Below, one piece after another: positions 1,860 to 53,090 of a DNA stretch of 55,773 nucleotides. A program made the position numbers and the translations under genes. Under the pieces are notes generated by a model. It was not told where the DNA came from. It did no database searches and saw nothing but the letters and a program-made list of their open reading frames with translations. The DNA lies in IMG/VR virus record IMGVR_UViG_3300020152_000027, positions 1-55,773 of that record; one strand, 5' to 3'. Source of the stretch: a virus. Position 1 is the stretch's first letter, and the number at the start of each line of letters is the position of its first letter.

Positions 1860-1884
1860 TGCGATTGACTCCTTAACTAAACTG

Positions 1885-1921
1885 TCTAGAGGATTCTAGA
1901 ATAATCTAGATAAGAAGTCAA
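1885..1921 (-). promoter_or_regulatory. Leftward early promoter with triple TCTAGA operator
   Basis: On the minus strand a -35 TTGACT (1921-1916), a 17-bp spacer and a -10 TAGAAT (1898-1893) are seen. Three TCTAGA boxes at 1885, 1895 and 1905 are exactly 10 bp apart and cover the spacer, the -10 and the start region. The same arrangement, including a 19-bp identical core, occurs at 4139-4175. Repeats in phase with one helical turn suit an oligomerising ribbon-helix-helix repressor. Confidence 0.8.
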
Positions 1922-1948
1922 GAGAGTTCTTGAAAATTATTTCAAACG

Positions 1949-4129: not shown

Positions 4130-4175
4130 ATTTTATCCTTGACAGCCCCGCTAGAATCTTCTAGAATCCTCTAGA
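4130..4175. promoter_or_regulatory. Divergent promoter region with triple CTAGA operator
   Basis: Rightward: TTGACA (4139-4144), a 17-bp spacer and TAGAAT (4162-4167). Boxes GCTAGA (4150), TCTAGA (4160) and TCTAGA (4170) are 10 bp apart and cover the spacer and the -10. Leftward: a TAAAAT (4135-4130) could serve the gene at 4109. The operator is the mirror copy of that at 1885-1910; the 19-bp core TCTAGAATCCTCTAGACAG is shared. Confidence 0.8.
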
Positions 4176-8902: not shown

Positions 8903-9928
8903 ATGAGCAAGATCATTCCTAACAGCTTCCAGACCCCGAACGCCTACATAGACGAGTTTATGGCGTTCCTCACGCCTGAAGAGAATGTAGTACTGACCTA
9001 CACGGCGCGGCGCATCTTCGGCTTTCATAAGGATGAGGATCGTATCAGCCTGTCACAGTACGCGGAGGGCATCAAGGCGCACGACGGCTCTATTTTGGAC
9101 TACGGGACAGGGTTAAATAAGAAAGCCGTCCGGCGCGCTCTGGATGCCCTGATCGCCTTCGGACTCATTATCGAAGTCGAGCCTTACGTTATAGAGACAA
9201 GCACCCCGGCCTGCTACGCGCTCCAACTCGACCCCGAAAAGATAGACTCCAGCGGTCTCCACGCGCGCCGTGCTGCTCGCGTGGCGATGGACTCACGACG
9301 GACGGCCAAAGGTAGAAACGTCGCCACACTTAACCGCGCCGAACGGTCAGACCCTAGTGTGTCCGATAACACACCCCCTGTTCTATCCCATACAACAGCC
9401 CCCCCTGTGTTATCGGACACTACACCCCCTGTTCTATCGGATAGCATACCCCCTGTTGTATCCGACACCACTACAAAAGCCAGAGAGAAACAAAGTAGAA
9501 AACCAGAAGAACCTTTAGGCGAGTCGGCTCACGCCTCCCCGCAAAGCCCCTCGCCAAAATCGAGGACTTCAAAGTCTCCACCCGACCCCCGTTCTCAACA
9601 CCCTGCAATCCAACTCGTCAAGAAATTGATGAGCCGTTACCCAGACAAGATTTGGTACGACGACATCATCGAGATCGTCGGAGAAGAACCAGACGTTGGA
9701 AAACTGACAGCCTGTCGCAAGGATTGGATCGGTAGGGGTTGGAACTCAAATTCGCTCGATTGGATACCGTGGTACAGAGACGGCATCCCCGAAAGGAACG
9801 GCAATGGAAAACAGAGCAACGGCAGCGGATCACATGGAAAATCTGGCGAGTCATCGGAAGTTTCTGACGCTACTCGAAAAGTGTCTGGACGCTTCCAACC
9901 TACCGAAACAGTCGGAAGTTCCCTATGA
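8903..9928 (+). CDS. Lambda O-like replication initiator
   Basis: 341 aa. Residues about 10-110 form a winged-helix domain (TPEENVVLTYTARRIFGFHK, KAVRRALDALIAFGLIIEVE), as in phage O/DnaD-type initiators. Residues about 150-190 are a low-complexity linker of PPVLSDTT-like repeats, and the DNA coding for it is a set of iterons (9359-9470). The C-terminal part (about 240-300, QLVKKLMSRYPDKIWYDDII) would recruit the helicase loader encoded next door. The last 125 bases overlap the DnaC-like gene. Order, size and internal iterons match lambda O. The domain call is from pattern. Confidence 0.75.
   Translation: MSKIIPNSFQTPNAYIDEFMAFLTPEENVVLTYTARRIFGFHKDEDRISLSQYAEGIKAHDGSILDYGTGLNKKAVRRALDALIAFGLIIEVEPYVIETSTPACYALQLDPEKIDSSGLHARRAARVAMDSRRTAKGRNVATLNRAERSDPSVSDNTPPVLSHTTAPPVLSDTTPPVLSDSIPPVVSDTTTKAREKQSRKPEEPLGESAHASPQSPSPKSRTSKSPPDPRSQHPAIQLVKKLMSRYPDKIWYDDIIEIVGEEPDVGKLTACRKDWIGRGWNSNSLDWIPWYRDGIPERNGNGKQSNGSGSHGKSGESSEVSDATRKVSGRFQPTETVGSSL
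9359..9470 (+). repeat. Iterons inside the O-like gene, candidate replication origin
   Basis: Four copies of a CCCCCTGTNNTATC unit begin at 9374, 9401, 9425 and 9449 (spacing 27, 24, 24 bp). A perfect 15-bp inverted repeat, GTGTCCGATAACACA (9359-9373) and its complement (9406-9420), overlaps the first two. They encode the repeated linker of the initiator. Lambda ori has the same layout: iterons in the O gene bound by O. Confidence 0.75.
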
Positions 9929-10658
9929 CTGCGACGACTGCTCGGATATGGGCGTCGTGTTCGGGAAGCATGAAGTGGACGGCAGACAGTACACCCATGC
10001 CAAGCCCTGCGTCTGCCGTCGGCGCAAGGCCGTCGAGTATTTGATGGAGACCATTGACCAGAGATTCAAACGGTTCGCGCCTCCCCGGCTGGCCGACCTC
10101 TCTCCCCGATATGACTGCTTCCGCGATGACCCGGCAGGCTCGAAATGGGTAGGCGACGCACAGGCTGAAGCGATTGCCTTGATGTGCGCGAATCCCTTCA
10201 GTTCTTTCGTGTTCGGGGGAGACAACGACACCGGGAAAACTCACATGGCCTATTCGCTGCTGGTCAATGCGTGTGAGACGGGGCGCACCTGCGTCCATAT
10301 CAAGCTGAGAGACCTTTTGGACGAGTGGGGCAAGGAAGCCAGAGGGGAGGCGGGGAAGGACGGTAAGGCGTTCCGTTCTACCGTTAGGGCAAGCGACCTC
10401 GCGCGAGGTCAATGGTCAATCCTGCTCGACGAGTTCGACAAGACGGGCGTGACGGAGTTCAGGAGCGCGGAACTCTATAACTTCCTTGATGAAATCTGGC
10501 GCAAAGGCCATCAACTGATCGTGACGGTCAACTTGCGTAAAGATCGGGTGATCGAGAAGTGGTCTCGGATTGATGAGACCTACGGAGCGTCCATCGCCAA
10601 AAGGCTGTACTCGGAAGCTAGAGGCGTCGGCCTGTTCGTTGACGAGATTAAGAAATGA
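9804..10658 (+). CDS. DnaC-like replicative helicase loader (lambda P role)
   Basis: 284 aa. A cysteine cluster (residues 43, 46, 69, 71) suggests a zinc site in the N-terminal helicase-binding part. An AAA+ core follows: Walker A GGDNDTGKT (about 138-146), Walker B ILLDE (about 206-210) and a sensor-like TVNLRK. Loaders of this type place the host DnaB helicase on the origin melted by the initiator. The ATG at 9804 has AAGGA six bases upstream and overlaps the O-like gene by 125 bases, so the pair is tightly co-expressed. The Walker A carries Asn-Asp where many loaders have Gly/Pro, a minor variation. Confidence 0.85.
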   Translation: MENRATAADHMENLASHRKFLTLLEKCLDASNLPKQSEVPYDCDDCSDMGVVFGKHEVDGRQYTHAKPCVCRRRKAVEYLMETIDQRFKRFAPPRLADLSPRYDCFRDDPAGSKWVGDAQAEAIALMCANPFSSFVFGGDNDTGKTHMAYSLLVNACETGRTCVHIKLRDLLDEWGKEARGEAGKDGKAFRSTVRASDLARGQWSILLDEFDKTGVTEFRSAELYNFLDEIWRKGHQLIVTVNLRKDRVIEKWSRIDETYGASIAKRLYSEARGVGLFVDEIKK

Positions 10659-13311: not shown

Positions 13312-13491
13312 ATGGTCAATATCATGGAAGCAAACGGCCAGTTGTTTGAAGGTAAAACCGTGATCTGTTCCGGGTGCGGCCAAGAGCATGAATCTTACGA
13401 CCCACATACGCCCGAAGGTGGCTATGAATACTGTGACGATTGCGTTGAAAGTGATCGTGAAGATGAAGCGCGGGAAAGGGCTGATCGCTGA
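13312..13491 (+). CDS. 59-aa zinc-ribbon protein
   Basis: Starts after GAGGGGGAGAGAA. CSGC (about 20-23) and CDDC (about 43-46) form a single four-cysteine zinc ribbon; the tail is acidic and then basic. Its TGA overlaps the ATG of the DUF1064 gene (TGATG), so the two are coupled. Function unknown. Confidence 0.6.
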   Translation: MVNIMEANGQLFEGKTVICSGCGQEHESYDPHTPEGGYEYCDDCVESDREDEARERADR

Positions 13492-13925
13492 TGGGATTGC
13501 AGATGACACCGCAGGAAGTCGAAGCGCACAACGCCAGAGTCATAGCAGGGCGGAGAGGCGTGTCTCAGGTCAATTCTGCGCAAGTACGGCCTAAGCGAGA
13601 GGGGCGCGTCAAAGGTGCGAAGCAGACGGAAGTGGACGGCATCAAGTTCCCGTCGAAGAAAGAGGCGCGCAGGTATCAGGAATTAAAGATCATTCAACGC
13701 GCCGAAGGTATCCGGCGACTGAGGCGGCAGATCACCTTTCCTTTGGTTGTGAAAGGCTGGCCTGTTTATGAAGAGGGCTATCGCGCTGATTTTACTTACT
13801 ACGAACTTGAGCGCGGTGAATGGTTTTATGTTGTCGAAGATACCAAAGGCCACAAGACGGAAACCTACTTAAACAAGAAACGGTTGATGAAGGCTATCTA
13901 CGGCATTGAAATCCGCGAATCGTGA
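13491..13925 (+). CDS. DUF1064 family nuclease-like protein
   Basis: 144 aa. The stretches GIKFPSKKEARRYQELKI, ITFPLVVKGWPVYEEGYRAD and VVEDTKGHKTETYLNKKRLM match DUF1064, a phage family of the PD-(D/E)XK nuclease fold. A Glu in the first helix, Asp after YRA and E-D-x-K (VEDTKG) form the expected catalytic set. Such proteins may resolve branched DNA during replication or recombination. It couples to the zinc-ribbon gene before it. Confidence 0.75.
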   Translation: MGLQMTPQEVEAHNARVIAGRRGVSQVNSAQVRPKREGRVKGAKQTEVDGIKFPSKKEARRYQELKIIQRAEGIRRLRRQITFPLVVKGWPVYEEGYRADFTYYELERGEWFYVVEDTKGHKTETYLNKKRLMKAIYGIEIRES

Positions 13926-21712: not shown

Positions 21713-23061
21713 ATCCAGACATCCAGTGGGCGTTAGACGCTATCTCTGCGCGCTCCGCAGACTACGACCTTGCGCGGGCTTACTACGACGGCCAGCACCG
21801 CCTCGACTTCGTGCCGTCGGAGTTTCGCCACGAGTTCGCGGCACTGCTTCGCCGCGCCCGCCTCAACATGTGCCCGGCGGTCGTGACGAGCGTGCGGGAC
21901 AGGTTGAAGCTGACCGGTCTGACTCACAACGGAGAGGTCAAAAAGGAGACGGAAGAAGGCCGTGAGCGGATTGTGAGCGACCCCGTGGGCGAACGCTTGA
22001 ACGCGCTCTGGCGACGTAACCGGATGGAGCAGAGAGCCGGGGAGATACACCTTGAGTCCCTGACGGTCGGAGACGCCTACGCTATCGTCTGGCCGTCTGC
22101 TCGAACCGGGGAAGTGACCATCTATCCGAACTTCGCCCACATGGTCGCGGTGCAGTATGACGACGAAGAGCCGGACATGATCGTCAAGGCCGCCCGCAAG
22201 TGGGCTGAACCTGACAAACGTGTCGCCTTGAACCTCTACTACCCCGACCGCATTGAAAAGTACCTGACCGTTAATCCTCTCGCGCAGGGCGGGCAACTTA
22301 AGGCCAAGATGTTTGCTCCTGTCGCGGGTGAAGAGGTTGTTTTCAACCCTTACGATCAAGTGCCCGTCTTCCACTTCGGCAACGGCGCGGGGTGTGGGCG
22401 GCTTGGGACTTCCGAGTTGAAAGAGGCGATCCCGGTTCAGGATGCGTTGAATAAGACCCTGCGCGACATGCTGATCGGAGGGGAAGAGCAGGCGTTCAAG
22501 CAGAGGTACGCAACAGGCGTAGAACTCCCGACCGACCCCGAAACAGGGCAGAAGATCAACCCGTTCGTCGCTAATGAGTTTTGGGCGACGGCTGCTAAAG
22601 ATGCCACGTTCGGGGAGTTGGAGGCCGCTAATCTTGAGCAGCTACAGACGGTCAAGGACGGCTACAAGATGGACATGGCGATGGTGACAGGTTTACCTCC
22701 GCATCACTTCTTCGCCGGGGGCGGGACGCCACCGAGCGGTGAATCTCTCAAGACTCTGGAGCAACGCCTGACCTCGAAGGTCGAAGACCGGCAGACGGCC
22801 TTTGGGGCGACGTGGGAGTCGCTGTTCAAGTTCGCCCTGCGACTTGATTCCGAAGTTGAAGATGTCGAGTTAGACGCTCTCTGGCGCGATACGACCCCGC
22901 GAAACGAGCAGGAGCAGCAGGGCATGGTGTTGGAGCGGGTGGAGAAGTTAGGCGTGCCGCCGGAGCAGGGGTTGAAGGAGTTAGGTTATACCGGGGAGGA
23001 AGTGGCGAAGTTTGCGGAGTGGAAACGTACTCAGGGCGTGCAGCCGGGGGGAGCGCAATAA
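21709..23061 (+). CDS. Portal protein (SPP1 Gp6-type)
   Basis: 450 aa from a TTG at 21709 with AGGAGG upstream, overlapping the terminase stop. Features that match Gp6-type portals are the helical start (AISARSADYDLARAYYDGQH), the core strands around VGDAYAIVWPS, the long helix ELKEAIPVQDALNKTLRDML, and the late VTGLPPHHFFAGGGTPPSGE motif. Portals form the dodecameric DNA channel. Its stop overlaps the next start (TAATG). Confidence 0.9.
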   Translation: MNPDIQWALDAISARSADYDLARAYYDGQHRLDFVPSEFRHEFAALLRRARLNMCPAVVTSVRDRLKLTGLTHNGEVKKETEEGRERIVSDPVGERLNALWRRNRMEQRAGEIHLESLTVGDAYAIVWPSARTGEVTIYPNFAHMVAVQYDDEEPDMIVKAARKWAEPDKRVALNLYYPDRIEKYLTVNPLAQGGQLKAKMFAPVAGEEVVFNPYDQVPVFHFGNGAGCGRLGTSELKEAIPVQDALNKTLRDMLIGGEEQAFKQRYATGVELPTDPETGQKINPFVANEFWATAAKDATFGELEAANLEQLQTVKDGYKMDMAMVTGLPPHHFFAGGGTPPSGESLKTLEQRLTSKVEDRQTAFGATWESLFKFALRLDSEVEDVELDALWRDTTPRNEQEQQGMVLERVEKLGVPPEQGLKELGYTGEEVAKFAEWKRTQGVQPGGAQ

Positions 23062-23597
23062 TGACGGCCATCGTGGGCATCGCAGAAAAGGGAAAGGTCT
23101 GGATCGGCGGTGACAGTCAGGGCACACGCGGGGGAACGAAGGTCAGGCTTGCGGAGGGGAAAGTTACATTTAACGGAGAGTTTCTAATAGGCACTTGCGG
23201 GACGCACCGGCTGGCTAATCTTGCTCGCCACATCTTCGTGCCGCCGCCGCTGGTAGCCGCCGCCGATCTTGATGGCTACATGGCGAGAGAGTTTTCCGAC
23301 GCTTGGCGAGAGTGCGTTCGCTCAAGTGGGCAGTTAAACGTAGAGAATGGTTATGAATCCTGCGACGGCAACATGCTAGTCGGCGTGAGAGGTCGTTTGT
23401 ACGAACTTGATAGTAGTTTCGGGGCTGTGCGCTCTCTTGACTGTTACGCGGCCATCGGGAGCGGCGACAACATCGCACTTGGGGCACTGCACGTCACCAA
23501 AGGCACGAAGCCTGAGAAGCGCGTCAGACTGGCACTGGAAGCTGCCGCGAAGTGGAATGATGGGGTTAGTGCCCCGTTTCATATTAAACACATCTGA
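23061..23597 (+). CDS. Proteasome/HslV-like Ntn hydrolase, possible prohead protease
   Basis: 178 aa. After removal of the first Met, Thr becomes residue 1 and the chain reads TAIVGIAEKGKVWIGGDSQG. D17 and K33 fall at exactly the positions of the catalytic Asp17 and Lys33 of proteasome beta subunits and HslV. LIGTCGTHRLAN resembles the strand with Gly47. These enzymes cleave peptide bonds using the N-terminal Thr. The gene sits between portal and scaffold/capsid, where other phages carry their maturation protease, and no other protease gene is seen there. A capsid maturation role is inferred. Confidence 0.75.
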   Translation: MTAIVGIAEKGKVWIGGDSQGTRGGTKVRLAEGKVTFNGEFLIGTCGTHRLANLARHIFVPPPLVAAADLDGYMAREFSDAWRECVRSSGQLNVENGYESCDGNMLVGVRGRLYELDSSFGAVRSLDCYAAIGSGDNIALGALHVTKGTKPEKRVRLALEAAAKWNDGVSAPFHIKHI

Positions 23598-47375: not shown

Positions 47376-47448
47376 ATTATACACGTCAAACCCTTTTAAC
47401 TCAAGGAAAAAGATTAGCCTTGTCAAACAGTTTAACGTGTGCTAAAAA
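47376..47448. promoter_or_regulatory. Divergent promoter pair with inverted operator
   Basis: Leftward: TTGAGT (47404-47399), 17 bp, TATAAT (47381-47376). Rightward: TTGTCA (47420-47425), 17 bp, TAAAAA (47443-47448). Each spacer or -10 edge is covered by one half of an inverted repeat: ACACGTCAAAC (47381-47391) and GTTTAACGTGT (47430-47440), one mismatch in eleven. The rightward start codon is seven bases after the -10, so that mRNA would be leaderless. Confidence 0.75.
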
Positions 47449-47455
47449 TCCGCGC

Positions 47456-47638
47456 ATGATACTGACCGTGCAAGAGGTAGCAAACCGTTTGGGCGTGACG
47501 CGAGAGCGCGTCTATAAGCTCATCACCGATAAGCGGCTGCCAGCTACAAAGTTCGGGCGCGACTGGCAGATACAAGAGAAGCATTTAAAACTCGTCCAAA
47601 ATCGTAGAGTCGGCAGACCCCGTAAAGAGGCCGCATAA
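47456..47638 (+). CDS. Excisionase/MerR-like HTH protein
   Basis: 60 aa. TVQEVANRLGVTRERVYKLI followed by DKRLPATKFGRDWQIQEKHL is the complete DNA-binding (HTH_17/Xis-like) domain, with a basic tail (RRVGRPRKEA). Proteins like this regulate or recombine mobile elements; here no recombinase is present, so control of the ParA cassette through the inverted operator just upstream is more likely. Probably leaderless. ParA starts two bases after it. Confidence 0.8.
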   Translation: MILTVQEVANRLGVTRERVYKLITDKRLPATKFGRDWQIQEKHLKLVQNRRVGRPRKEAA

Positions 47639-47639
47639 C

Positions 47640-48440
47640 ATGAAGACTATCGCCATCGCAAATCAGAAGGGCGGCGTAGGTAAAACGACTACCGCTGTTA
47701 ATCTTGCCGCTGCCCTACAGTCGCAAGGCCGGAGGGTGCTGGTGCTCGACCTAGACCCGCAGGCAACCGCCACCCGCTTCCTGCTCGACCGCTACGGGGC
47801 TGACGGGGAGACGATGTATGAAGTCCTCTTGAACAGTAAACCTCTCTCCGAAGTCATCCAGAAATCCCCCGCCGGTATCCCCATCGCGCCCAGCAACTTC
47901 AATCTGGCGTCGCTCGACCTCGACCTGAACAACGCCCTGAACCGCGAGCACCGCCTGACCGCCGCGCTGGAAGAGATTCCCGGCTACGACTACACGCTGA
48001 TTGACTGCCCGACGTTCTTAGGCTTCGCCAACATCAACGCCTTTGCCGCATCCCAAAGCGTGCTGATACCGATTGAATGCGCGCCGGAATCATGGGAAGC
48101 AGTTCCCTACTTGATGCAGACCTTACGCAAGATCATCACGCAGCTTAAACACCCGTTGAAGGTGTTCGCGCTGCCGACGTTCTTAGAGCGCACTAACATC
48201 GCCAGAGACATCCACGAAGAAATCAAAGAGCATTTTGAGGCGTACACCCTCAGTCCGATCAACAAGAACGTGAAACTGAAAGAGGCTTTCAACGCGAGAA
48301 AGCCGATCACTCAATACGACCCGGCGGCGTCGGGTGCTATGGACTACCTGAGAGCGGCTAAGGAGATCATTAGTGAACACGAAACCGAAAAGGAAATACG
48401 GCGAAGTAAAGAAGGGCGCGGAAACGACGCTCGGAACTAA
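47640..48440 (+). CDS. parA: ParA-type partition ATPase
   Basis: 266 aa. Deviant Walker A KGGVGKTT (10-17), Walker A-prime DLDPQ (about 37-41) and Walker B LIDCPTF are those of ParA/Soj-type ATPases, which place plasmid copies in dividing cells by moving on the nucleoid. There is no N-terminal HTH extension, so it resembles type Ib/chromosomal-style ParA; the separate HTH gene upstream may supply DNA binding. No ParB homologue is recognised; the winged-helix protein encoded next, overlapping by 68 bases, is the candidate partner. This gene is the main argument for plasmid maintenance. Confidence 0.9.
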   Translation: MKTIAIANQKGGVGKTTTAVNLAAALQSQGRRVLVLDLDPQATATRFLLDRYGADGETMYEVLLNSKPLSEVIQKSPAGIPIAPSNFNLASLDLDLNNALNREHRLTAALEEIPGYDYTLIDCPTFLGFANINAFAASQSVLIPIECAPESWEAVPYLMQTLRKIITQLKHPLKVFALPTFLERTNIARDIHEEIKEHFEAYTLSPINKNVKLKEAFNARKPITQYDPAASGAMDYLRAAKEIISEHETEKEIRRSKEGRGNDARN

Positions 48441-49446
48441 TCAGTCGGTATTCGATAAGTTCCTGCCCTCCACAGATACGACCGTACCTAGCACCCCTCC
48501 TAGCCCCCGTCCTAGTACCCCTGCTAGGCAGCCTAGCCCCCGCGACGTAGCTCCGAACCGCGACTTTCAGAAGGTGGCGAACTCAATCACGCGAGATGCC
48601 ATCCCTTCGGGGATGTTCAACGGCAAGGCCAAGCAGTTGTATGACTGCCTCTACAGCCTGACGAGAGGCGCGATAGTTCCCTCCATGACCGTCCGTATCA
48701 GCCGCGCCGCCTTGATGAAGAAATCAGGCATCGGCGCAAAGGTCACGCTCGAACAGAATCTAAGACGCCTCGCGCTCTCCGGCCTCGTCTCCATTAAAAC
48801 CATCGGAGGCGTACAGGGCGGCAACGAGTACACAGTGAGATTGCCGGAAGAAGCCATACCTAGTACCCCTCCTAGTACGGGTACTAGCCTACCTAGCCCT
48901 CCTAGCAGTGGCGAGAATGTAGGAGTCCTAGCCCCCCTAGAAAGTAGCCCTCCTAGCCACGGTTTAAGTGCTGATTATCAAACAACTTCTGACGATCCCA
49001 AGACTCTTATTAAAGACAGAGAAAGAATTGATGATGAGGCTGCGCCGCTTCGAACGAAAGCCTTCGAAAAGTTCGAAGTTTTCACAAACGCAATAGAATC
49101 ACTAGATGTAGTTGTCAAAGAGCTAACAGGCAAGGGAATCAGTAAATCAGACGCTTCGAAGTGGTCTGAATTGTTCGAACTTCTCGCCACGGAACTCAAG
49201 ATCGCCGCTGCTCGCACAACCGTTTCCAGCGTGCCCGCATTTCTCACGGAACACTTGCGTAGAAGGCTCTTTAAACGCTCGGCAGACGAGATGCGAGTAG
49301 AGAGCAGGGAAGCGGTAAATTCGCCCGCTGCACAGCCCGTAGACGCAAGCAAATGCCTCGACTGTGGAAATACCGGCTGGTGGTATCCTGAAGGGCCGGA
49401 GAAGGGTGTGGCCCGCTGCGCGCACGCAAGGTTAGGGGCCGAATAA
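48373..49446 (+). CDS. Winged-helix replication or partition protein with repeat linkers
   Basis: 357 aa from a GTG with AAGGAG upstream, inside the end of parA. Residues about 39-56 and 163-195 are Pro/Ser/Thr repeats (PSTPPSPRPSTPAR type) coded by CCTAG-rich DNA. Between them (about 62-160) is a winged-helix domain (NRDFQKVANSITRDAIPSGM, LMKKSGIGAKVTLEQNLRRL, GGNEYTVRLPEE). The C-terminus has a zinc-site-like CLDCGNTGWWYPEG...CAH. I recall similar proteins beside ParA in acidobacterial mobile elements, often with varied repeat linkers, but cannot verify this here. It is the likely initiator or centromere-binding protein of the plasmid state. Confidence 0.65.
   Translation: MNTKPKRKYGEVKKGAETTLGTNQSVFDKFLPSTDTTVPSTPPSPRPSTPARQPSPRDVAPNRDFQKVANSITRDAIPSGMFNGKAKQLYDCLYSLTRGAIVPSMTVRISRAALMKKSGIGAKVTLEQNLRRLALSGLVSIKTIGGVQGGNEYTVRLPEEAIPSTPPSTGTSLPSPPSSGENVGVLAPLESSPPSHGLSADYQTTSDDPKTLIKDRERIDDEAAPLRTKAFEKFEVFTNAIESLDVVVKELTGKGISKSDASKWSELFELLATELKIAAARTTVSSVPAFLTEHLRRRLFKRSADEMRVESREAVNSPAAQPVDASKCLDCGNTGWWYPEGPEKGVARCAHARLGAE
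48487..48536 (+). repeat. CCTAG iterons, cluster 1
   Basis: CCTAG at 48487, 48499, 48511 and 48532 and GCTAG at 48523; the first four lie exactly 12 bp apart. They encode the first PSTP-type linker. CTAG is normally one of the rarest four-base words in bacterial DNA. Confidence 0.7.
48859..48956 (+). repeat. CCTAG iterons, cluster 2
   Basis: CCTAG (once ACTAG) at 48859, 48871, 48883, 48892, 48901, 48927, 48936 and 48952, spaced mostly by 9 or 12 bp. They code for the second linker of the same protein. Density of CTAG here far exceeds that of the surrounding gene. Confidence 0.7.
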
Positions 49447-49451
49447 CGTGC

Positions 49452-49537
49452 GGTCCCGAAACCCCCTGTTTTAGCCGCTGGACCAAGTATAAATGTTGAA
49501 AGTGTGTGATTTAACATTGGTCCCAAGTATTAGGACC
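49452..49537 (+). repeat. Repeats after the winged-helix gene, possible origin or centromere
   Basis: GGTCC/GGACC occurs four times (49452, 49480, 49519, 49533). CCAAGTAT occurs at 49483 and 49523, and TTTTAGCC twice around the same stretch. The pair at 49519 and 49533 forms a small hairpin. The region 49447-49660 carries no gene that I can support and is AT-richer than its neighbours in part. Confidence 0.45.
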
Positions 49538-49658
49538 GCAAGGTGGCCATTTTAGCCCTCTAACGTGTCCCATTCTCTCTATTCACAACGTTTAATGCCG
49601 GGCCAGCGACTTCTCCCGCGCTTGAATCGCTGACAGGGAAGTGCACAACCTCAATCCA

Positions 49659-52160: not shown

Positions 52161-53021
52161 CTAACTGGAAGGGAACTCGTCCCATGTGCGACCCGAGCCT
52201 TTTACCTGTCGGCGGTATTTGACGTTGACATAATCTGTGGGTAGGTATTGCTGCAAATCTTCCTTGATGTAGTGATCGTTTCCGGTCTCTGCGAGCAGTT
52301 CGATAACCTGCTTGGTGAACGCCTTCCAGTCCGTGCGCTTCGTCAGCGTCGAGTAGTTGATACGCCCGATCTTGTACAGGTCAACGAAGGTGTGAGTCTG
52401 GCGGATGATTTCGAGCGTCACGTCAGGGTCAATCACAGGTTCAAGGCTGACCCATGTATACAGCCCGGCTTCGTGGAAACGTTTCAACGTCTCAATGCGG
52501 TCTGCCGGGGAAGCCGCGCCCGCCTCCATCCTCATTGATGTCGCTTCATCCAAGAGCGTCAGGCTTGAGGCGAAAGCATCGCGGTCAGGGCGAAACAGAT
52601 CGAGGTCGCGAAGCGCGCGGCTCCCGCCTTTGGTGAGCGTGCAGAAGGCCATCCCGTGCTGGATGAGTGTTTGAATCGTCTCGCGCGTCAAGGACGTGTC
52701 GAACGGGTGATACGGATCGGTGGTGAAACAGAGCAAGACCTGTTCGGTAATGCCGAGTGATTGGTATTTGCGTGCATCTTTTGGAAGTTGTTCGCGGTAG
52801 ATCGCCCGATCTTTCGCGCCTGCGTCGAACTCTGCGCGGCTCATCTTCAAGACGCTCGGAACATAGCAGTAAAAACACTTATGGCCGCACCCTCGGTACA
52901 TGTTGGTCGCAAGTCGCGCATACTCTCCGGCCTGACCAGCGGGCGCGTAGATAATCGAACAGTTTTTGACGGAGTACCCGTCAGCGTTGAGCGTTGGTTT
53001 CATTGCAATTTTATTTGGCAT
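52161..53021 (-). CDS. Radical SAM protein, spore photoproduct lyase-like
   Basis: 286 aa from the ATG at 53021 (AAGGA eight bases upstream). YRGCGHKCFYCYVP has Cys45, Cys49 and Cys52, the CX3CX2C signature for a 4Fe-4S cluster that splits S-adenosylmethionine into a radical. The context GCxHxCxYCYVP and the later FTTDPYHPFD and WVSLEPVID match the SplB-type (COG1533) branch. Known relatives repair thymine dimers or act on unknown substrates. A phage copy in an early operon could modify or repair DNA; the substrate is unknown. Confidence 0.85.
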   Translation of the reverse strand: MPNKIAMKPTLNADGYSVKNCSIIYAPAGQAGEYARLATNMYRGCGHKCFYCYVPSVLKMSRAEFDAGAKDRAIYREQLPKDARKYQSLGITEQVLLCFTTDPYHPFDTSLTRETIQTLIQHGMAFCTLTKGGSRALRDLDLFRPDRDAFASSLTLLDEATSMRMEAGAASPADRIETLKRFHEAGLYTWVSLEPVIDPDVTLEIIRQTHTFVDLYKIGRINYSTLTKRTDWKAFTKQVIELLAETGNDHYIKEDLQQYLPTDYVNVKYRRQVKGSGRTWDEFPSS

Positions 53022-53090
53022 GTGCGTTTTCCTTAAATTACTTTCCTCTGTCATAGGGAATTTAGGTTGATGAAATTGCACCCTCTTGAG

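Follow-up and report, generated by a model that had tools for sequence, protein, structure and literature searches.

A ParA-linked winged-helix gene with internal repeats as a candidate maintenance replicon of a metagenome phage

What does a ParA ATPase do in a phage for which no integrase match is found, and why is its gene followed by an overlapping winged-helix (WH) gene with repeats inside the coding sequence? These questions are raised by a metagenome phage whose whole IMG/VR virus record, IMGVR_UViG_3300020152_000027 (55,773 bases, hereafter the window), carries a cassette at 47456-49446 composed of a small helix-turn-helix (HTH) gene, a ParA gene, and the overlapping WH gene. The cassette combines these parts, in this order, with repeats at the DNA level, an AT-rich stretch under constraint, and a WH protein N-terminus that co-varies with the upstream ATPase. 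Judged from sequence, it has slightly better than an even chance of being a compact maintenance replicon, in which an initiator resembling the lambda O type (O-like) would be coupled to ParA, use an origin within its own gene, and also act as the adaptor of ParA.

The ParA cassette

The features of the cassette and of the site preceding it are as follows.

47420..47449, + strand: promoter-like site before the HTH gene, TTGTCA-18-AAAAAT, from a consensus scan only (9 of 12)
47456..47638, + strand: small HTH_17 protein, PF12728 1.2e-11
47640..48440, + strand: ParA ATPase, 266 aa, PF13614 E=2.8e-45, phrog_164 6e-57
48373..49446, + strand: WH initiator-like protein, 357 aa, starting inside parA with a 68-nt overlap
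48373..48468, + strand: tail of 32 residues at the N-terminus, candidate site of ParA contact from co-variation with the upstream ATPase
48487..48537, + strand: repeat cluster 1, CTAG cores at 48488, 48500, 48512, 48524, 48533
48625..48840, + strand: WH domain, residues 85-156, AlphaFold2 model, predicted local distance difference test score (pLDDT) mostly 67-89
48859..48957, + strand: repeat cluster 2, CTAG cores at 48860, 48872, 48884, 48893, 48902, 48928, 48937, 48953
48972..49016, + strand: candidate unwinding element, an AT-rich stretch (67% AT vs 45% for the gene) that follows cluster 2
49048..49317, + strand: conserved helical C-terminal region, from the model and comparison with relatives
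49354..49425, + strand: C-terminal Cys/His motif, common to the O-like initiators of two cassette-bearing phages

An earlier note on this DNA had described an HTH gene, a ParA ATPase, and an overlapping WH gene with inner repeats, and that observation largely holds, with both family assignments, the overlap, the modelled WH fold, and the CTAG repeats in the gene all recovered. The window ParA contains the deviant Walker A motif KGGVGKTT, as is typical of type I ParABS ATPases. The HTH_17 protein is likely an autoregulator of the operon, and a relative 42% identical to it precedes ParA in the viral record L002.

The structure of the WH protein was modelled from six relatives with a mean pLDDT of 53.7. 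The WH fold at residues ~85-156 is flanked by two segments with pLDDT under 50, and the CTAG repeats coincide with these segments. The protein is unmatched by PF06970 (RepA_N) at E up to 1 and by Phage_rep_O and phage_O_Nterm, and ParB families in Pfam and PHROG likewise give no match. A sequence search of the PDB returned nothing for it, and the fold of its C-terminal region has no PDB match under E 0.001. By tblastn, the WH protein finds nothing in phages or plasmids at E up to 0.01, nor does the third cassette protein of L133 match in plasmids.

Repeats within the winged-helix gene

The 1.07-kb WH gene holds 14 of the 90 CTAGs in the window, spaced by 12, 12, 12, and 9 in cluster 1 and by 12, 12, 9, 9, 26, 9, and 16 in cluster 2. 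All five exact matches to CCCYCCTAG in the window lie inside this gene, while allowing one mismatch gives 16 in the window vs 16.65 by chance. Synonymous codon shuffling (n=300) was used to ask whether the proline/serine-rich peptide alone explains the repeats. None of the 300 same-protein shuffles reaches the 8-mer repetition of the window gene (z 7.8). Of 20 control genes from the window, 19 lie at z -1.0 to 3.6 and the remaining one, an O-like gene discussed below, at 7.2.

This property extends to the family. The set compared comprises, with the window's own, 22 cassettes in which the third gene encodes a WH protein, and 21 of these genes beat all 300 same-protein shuffles. The exception, L153, fails the test. 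Genes following ParA in other loci (n=87) have a median z of 0.67, with three above z 3 and none above 5. Short partner genes after ParA with a repeat excess were also seen in two other viral records, at L047:6440-6874 (z 4.8) and L033:10767-11264 (z 3.3). The best-counting 9-mer differs between WH genes, most of which carry it on both strands and in several reading frames. Not one of its 207 sites in 21 genes falls inside the WH part; the repeats sit in the two linkers around it. As the 9-mer seeds were picked to maximise counts, the codon shuffles are the actual test. Iterons within the initiator's own gene, as in O-type systems, are present in the window WH gene, and the same repeats are a candidate for the centromere of a type I ParABS system.

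Further repeats had been noted after the WH gene, and nested inverted repeats are indeed found at 49440-49540, or 49444-49560 when taken further. They are not copies of the in-gene repeat, and their folding is weak (z -1.62, with 13/200 shuffles folding as well). A structured RNA at this position was considered and rejected on this folding score and the lack of any Rfam match in the window.

The AT-rich stretch

The most AT-rich 45 nt fall 36-179 nt past the WH domain in 18 of the 22 genes, the peak being missing in L150, L152, L153, and L156. Codon usage was compared at identical residues in 13 genes, where the same codon is used in 518/734 cases within the AT-rich stretch vs 1891/4662 elsewhere in the C-terminal region. 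AT at third codon positions is 0.62 in the stretch vs 0.28 elsewhere in the region (Wilcoxon p=1.2e-4, 13 genes). The AT-rich stretch is constrained at the DNA level across these 13 relatives.

Module exchange among relatives

Three viral records (L002, L003, L004) encode a ParA 85-89% identical to that of the window. Two of the third proteins encoded there resemble the window's at the start only, and the remaining one is ~41% identical to it over the whole length. At E 1e-4, the window terminase, portal, and major head proteins have no match in these records (G004, G005, G006). G007 has a head protein 91% and a portal 71% identical to the window's, but its ParA is only 38% identical and its third protein is different. 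No cassette was found by tblastn in the six major-head relatives whose records were read.

ParA lies upstream in 16 of the 22 cassettes and another ATPase in six (L136, L143, L144, L150, L151, L156); the four of these six that were tested encode PF13401 AAA_22. A single ParA-family match, that of the cassette, occurs in 13 of 16 viral records, and the other three, all belonging to the six non-ParA cassettes, have none.

Across the 22 cassettes, the first 32 residues of the third protein co-vary with the ATPase (Mantel r 0.33, 0/2000 permutations), whereas the WH domain does not (-0.09, 1694/2000), and neither does repeat content (382/2000). Because the parA and WH genes overlap, the test was rerun on the 11 cassettes with an overlap of <=23 nt. 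There, residues 9-32 co-vary with the ATPase (0.585, 0/2000) vs 0.098 for the WH domain (395/2000). The Par function proposed earlier is upheld for the ATPase, and the WH protein, favoured by this co-variation, is the sole adaptor candidate; a ParB is not found.

A second replication module and likeness to O-like genes

The earlier note overlooked a second initiator and loader at 8903-10658.

8903..9928, + strand: separate O-like replication initiator, phrog_678 2e-11, PF04492 1e-5 (below cut-off)
9352..9516, + strand: iterons (9352-9471), then the most AT-rich window (9472-9516) of the O-like gene
9804..10658, + strand: DnaC-like helicase loader, phrog_50 2.2e-9

The iterons of the 8903-9928 gene have 24-bp spacing, its AT-rich stretch lies within the gene, and the DnaC-like loader comes next. 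The presence of this module suggests that the cassette is probably for maintenance. The arrangement of iterons followed by an AT-rich stretch is common to this gene and the WH gene. In five further O-like genes of other cassette-bearing phages the repeat z is 3.1-10, and the AT peak falls among or after the repeats in four, though not in G009. The Cys/His tail of the cassette proteins also ends the O-like proteins of G013 and G009. Separate phrog_678 matches exist in G000, G004, G006, G009, G013, G016, and G018, of which the one in G006 is short, at 151 aa, and may not be an initiator; in G007 and G017 the phrog_678 match is the cassette gene itself. Two further third proteins approach O-like families below cut-off, that of L143 with TIGR01610 (1.2e-4) and that of L003 with Phage_rep_O / phage_O_Nterm (E=0.021).

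That the WH protein starts replication, as had been proposed, is favoured indirectly by the family-wide repeats, the constrained AT-rich stretch in the gene, and the O-like resemblance; the window protein itself has no initiator-family match.

Comparison with known systems

The closest parallels come from initiators with origins in their own genes. As in the lambda O-type (Phage_rep_O, PF04492), whose origin lies in the O gene, the cassette combines a putative WH DNA-binding domain with iterons in the linker-coding part and, across the family, an AT-rich stretch beside them. It differs in that the window repeats flank the WH domain on both sides, PF04492 does not match the window WH protein, and the neighbour of the cassette WH gene is ParA or another ATPase rather than a DnaC/P loader; in the window, the WH gene adjoins ParA and the DnaC-like gene adjoins the 8903-9928 O-like gene. 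In the portion of PMC5703833 available, Rep boxes inside rep of pSK41 encode a linker, and pPR9 has exchanged its N-terminal domain (NTD) plus origin while keeping its C-terminal domain (CTD). RepA_N initiators of this kind resemble the cassette in the WH NTD, the boxes in rep encoding a linker, and the swap of NTD and origin with a constant CTD. However, the fold likeness is weak, PF06970 does not match, and an overlapping ParA is not mentioned for pSK41 or pPR9 in that portion of the source.

Partition systems of phages and plasmids offer a second set of parallels. According to the available part of PMC7157519, the cluster A mycobacteriophages RedRock and Miko are parABS prophages with ParA in place of an integrase and repeated 8-bp parS units, and their ParA is conserved while the partner is diversified, which was suggested to avoid incompatibility. 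The cassette shares ParA instead of an integrase, repeated sites, and a conserved ParA with a diversified partner. RedRock and Miko differ in that they encode ParB, have parS loci described as lying outside parB, and use either a separate repA or an RNA-based origin, whereas the window cassette is without ParB and has its repeats inside the WH gene. The ParA-ParT-parS system of Streptomyces SCP2, as far as described in the available part of PMC12260392, is alike in its ParB-like partner, N-terminal ParA-contact peptide, and parS in its own gene. ParT differs in being an HTH clamp protein with one 18-bp inverted-repeat site, and no AT-rich element or initiator-like tail is mentioned in that part. 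The searched literature, where most subscription journals fell outside coverage, yielded no description of an initiator gene that overlaps parA and contains its own origin.

Proposed mechanism and rival explanations

In the proposed replicon, the WH domain would bind the repeats that lie in its own gene, in the parts coding for the two disordered linkers, after which the AT-rich stretch following cluster 2 would be opened and replication would start. The first ~30 residues, partly encoded within the parA overlap, would contact ParA, and the WH protein is in this way probably also its adaptor. As the initiator-bound repeat array would double as a partition complex, ParB would not be needed. The small HTH protein would probably regulate the operon, and lytic replication would probably be carried out by the other module, the O-like and DnaC-like genes at 8903-10658. 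A broader proposal, tentative and with the chances somewhat against it, is that origin and centromere functions are both provided by a single protein with a single DNA array, with the tail matched to the upstream ATPase (ParA or AAA_22) and the WH domain and repeats swapped as a specificity unit, giving rise to many compatible replicons.

Several observations weigh against the maintenance replicon. For the window WH protein, Pfam gives nothing above cut-off, and PHROG and NCBIfam give nothing at E 0.1. Its WH fold ranks the RepA_N NTD first in Foldseek, with a weak E of 0.025 and other WH folds scoring alike. A domain for helicase or primase contact is not universal, since some relatives are without a full C-terminus: L003 lacks the C-terminal region and tail, and L002 and L006 keep the tail only. 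The window AT-rich stretch alone is not significant because 53/200 same-protein shuffles reach its value, the window contains no perfect DnaA box (TTWTNCACA), and the phage already has an initiator at 8903-9928. The co-variation of repeat content with the WH domain is modest (Mantel 0.21, 59/2000, 22 cassettes), and the N-termini in the window's group are conserved partly because their coding sequence overlaps parA. A PF00589 recombinase is present in 5 of 16 cassette-bearing viral records, which speaks against a plasmid-only lifestyle.

Some of the same evidence could be read as pure partition, which is considered unlikely without being negligible. ParA would then act with a WH protein that binds a centromere located within the gene encoding it, and the prophage would be replicated by 8903-10658 or another origin. 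The gene order and overlap are as in parA-parB with no ParB elsewhere in the operon, the N-terminus tracks the ATPase in the Mantel tests, and 13 of the 16 viral records have no ParA besides the cassette's. Similarity to the ParB LG-R/K-GL motif given in the available part of PMC12260392, where a parS site also lies within the parT coding sequence, is seen at the N-termini of L142 (LGRGI) and L133 (LQRGL), and the L003 third protein consists of tail, repeats, and WH only. Pure partition leaves unexplained, however, the conserved AT-rich stretch and the initiator-like C-terminus. It also sits poorly with the six cassettes that have another ATPase in place of ParA, and with L176, where a ParA-WH pair directly precedes a separate ParA and ParB-like pair (ParB judged from its motif). 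The origin anatomy of repeats and AT-rich stretch and the exchangeable ATPase type would fit an initiator that replicates from its in-gene origin while ParA acts elsewhere, on copy control or a host target, with no docking between them. This is quite improbable, as the co-variation of tail and ATPase persists in cassettes whose genes overlap slightly or not at all.

Least probable, with only a slim chance, is that the cassette is a remnant or passenger island in a phage that is either lytic or able to integrate with genes that the record does not contain. The lack of a terminal repeat in the record, the PF00589 matches in 5 of 16 records, and cassettes amid ordinary-looking genes on the bacterial contigs L174 and L175 would all fit this explanation. 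It is countered by the fact that all three cassette genes are open, and by the 85-89% identity of ParA across phages in which the window terminase, portal, and head proteins find no match.

Phage genes and lifestyle

The window encodes a terminase, portal, scaffold, major head, and tape measure protein, confirming the phage structural genes described previously, and structural genes and plasmid maintenance genes are found together, as expected of a phage-plasmid. The claim that integrases, resolvases, and transposases are absent stands in part. PF00589 (tyrosine recombinase) and PF00239 (serine recombinase) each have 0 matches in the window record, which may be incomplete, and an integrase or resolvase in the window was rejected on these searches. 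A Holliday-junction resolvase-type gene does exist at 13491-13925 (phrog_190), which is not a site-specific resolvase. The transposase claim was checked on scanned open reading frames only, without a six-frame search for transposase families.

The record has no terminal repeat of at least 12 bp, while terminal repeats of 120-127 bp are found in four of the six major-head relatives read. PF00589 is also unmatched in 14 of 17 major-head relatives examined. The missing integrase is thus weak evidence, because the record may be incomplete and most of these relatives share the lack. Plasmid lysogeny of the window phage is nonetheless plausible, as it fits a ParA without an integrase match. No extrachromosomal copy, circular form, or host assembly came to light for it. 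The earlier plasmid-phage interpretation is partly supported in its initiator and ParA roles, and the plasmid state is a proposal consistent with them. The module is not limited to phages, since cassettes also occur on bacterial contigs amid ordinary-looking genes (L174, L175, L176). Matches to the A3 profile were found in 6/396 genomes of the phylum of an Acidobacteria metagenome-assembled genome (MAG) vs 0/299 of another phylum; as this first look scored few candidates a genome, the phylum is a lead and not a host assignment.

Other features of the window

Two promoter-like sites, at 4132-4175 (+) and 1880-1925 (-), carry a triple CTAGA with 10-bp spacing over the -10 region, with the core TCTAGAATCCTCTAGA. 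Allowing up to 3 mismatches, this core has 8 matches, all at these two sites, vs 0.96 expected, and the sites are candidate operators for a single phage regulator. The gene at 23019-23597 (+), immediately following the portal gene, matches an HslV-like peptidase PHROG (phrog_1040) and is possibly the head protease. The right-hand gene block includes a radical SAM protein at 52161-53081 (-), with PF04055 at 1.1e-13 and a weak match to a photolyase-named PHROG.

A parallel design in a bacterial genome

G081 is a bacterial genome of 8.3 Mb, from the phylum of the Acidobacteria MAG, with 45 PF13614 matches. Among the 28 ParA loci read, 11 (L187, L188, L190-L197, L209) are followed by a protein that looks ribbon-helix-helix (RHH) by inspection and whose gene contains repeats (z 10.5-33), the 9-mer differing from locus to locus. 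Most non-RHH loci are followed by ParB-like genes. Three more loci pass z 3 (3.4-4.4), with ParB-like or unrelated partners, and were left out of the 11. An AT-rich peak follows the last site in only 5 of the 11 RHH-like genes, none of the five beyond shuffles. Common ancestry of the WH and RHH-like partners was rejected, as profile comparison shows none, and the shared design is for that reason an analogy only.

Implications

If the maintenance replicon is as proposed, replication control, partition, and incompatibility would be packed into two overlapping genes, and specificity would change when one domain is exchanged along with its linker repeats. The replicon would also raise the question of whether an AAA+ ATPase can substitute for ParA, and would suggest vectors for hard-to-engineer soil bacteria. 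Such an arrangement would provide a testable model for the coexistence of many related phages and plasmids in one cell.

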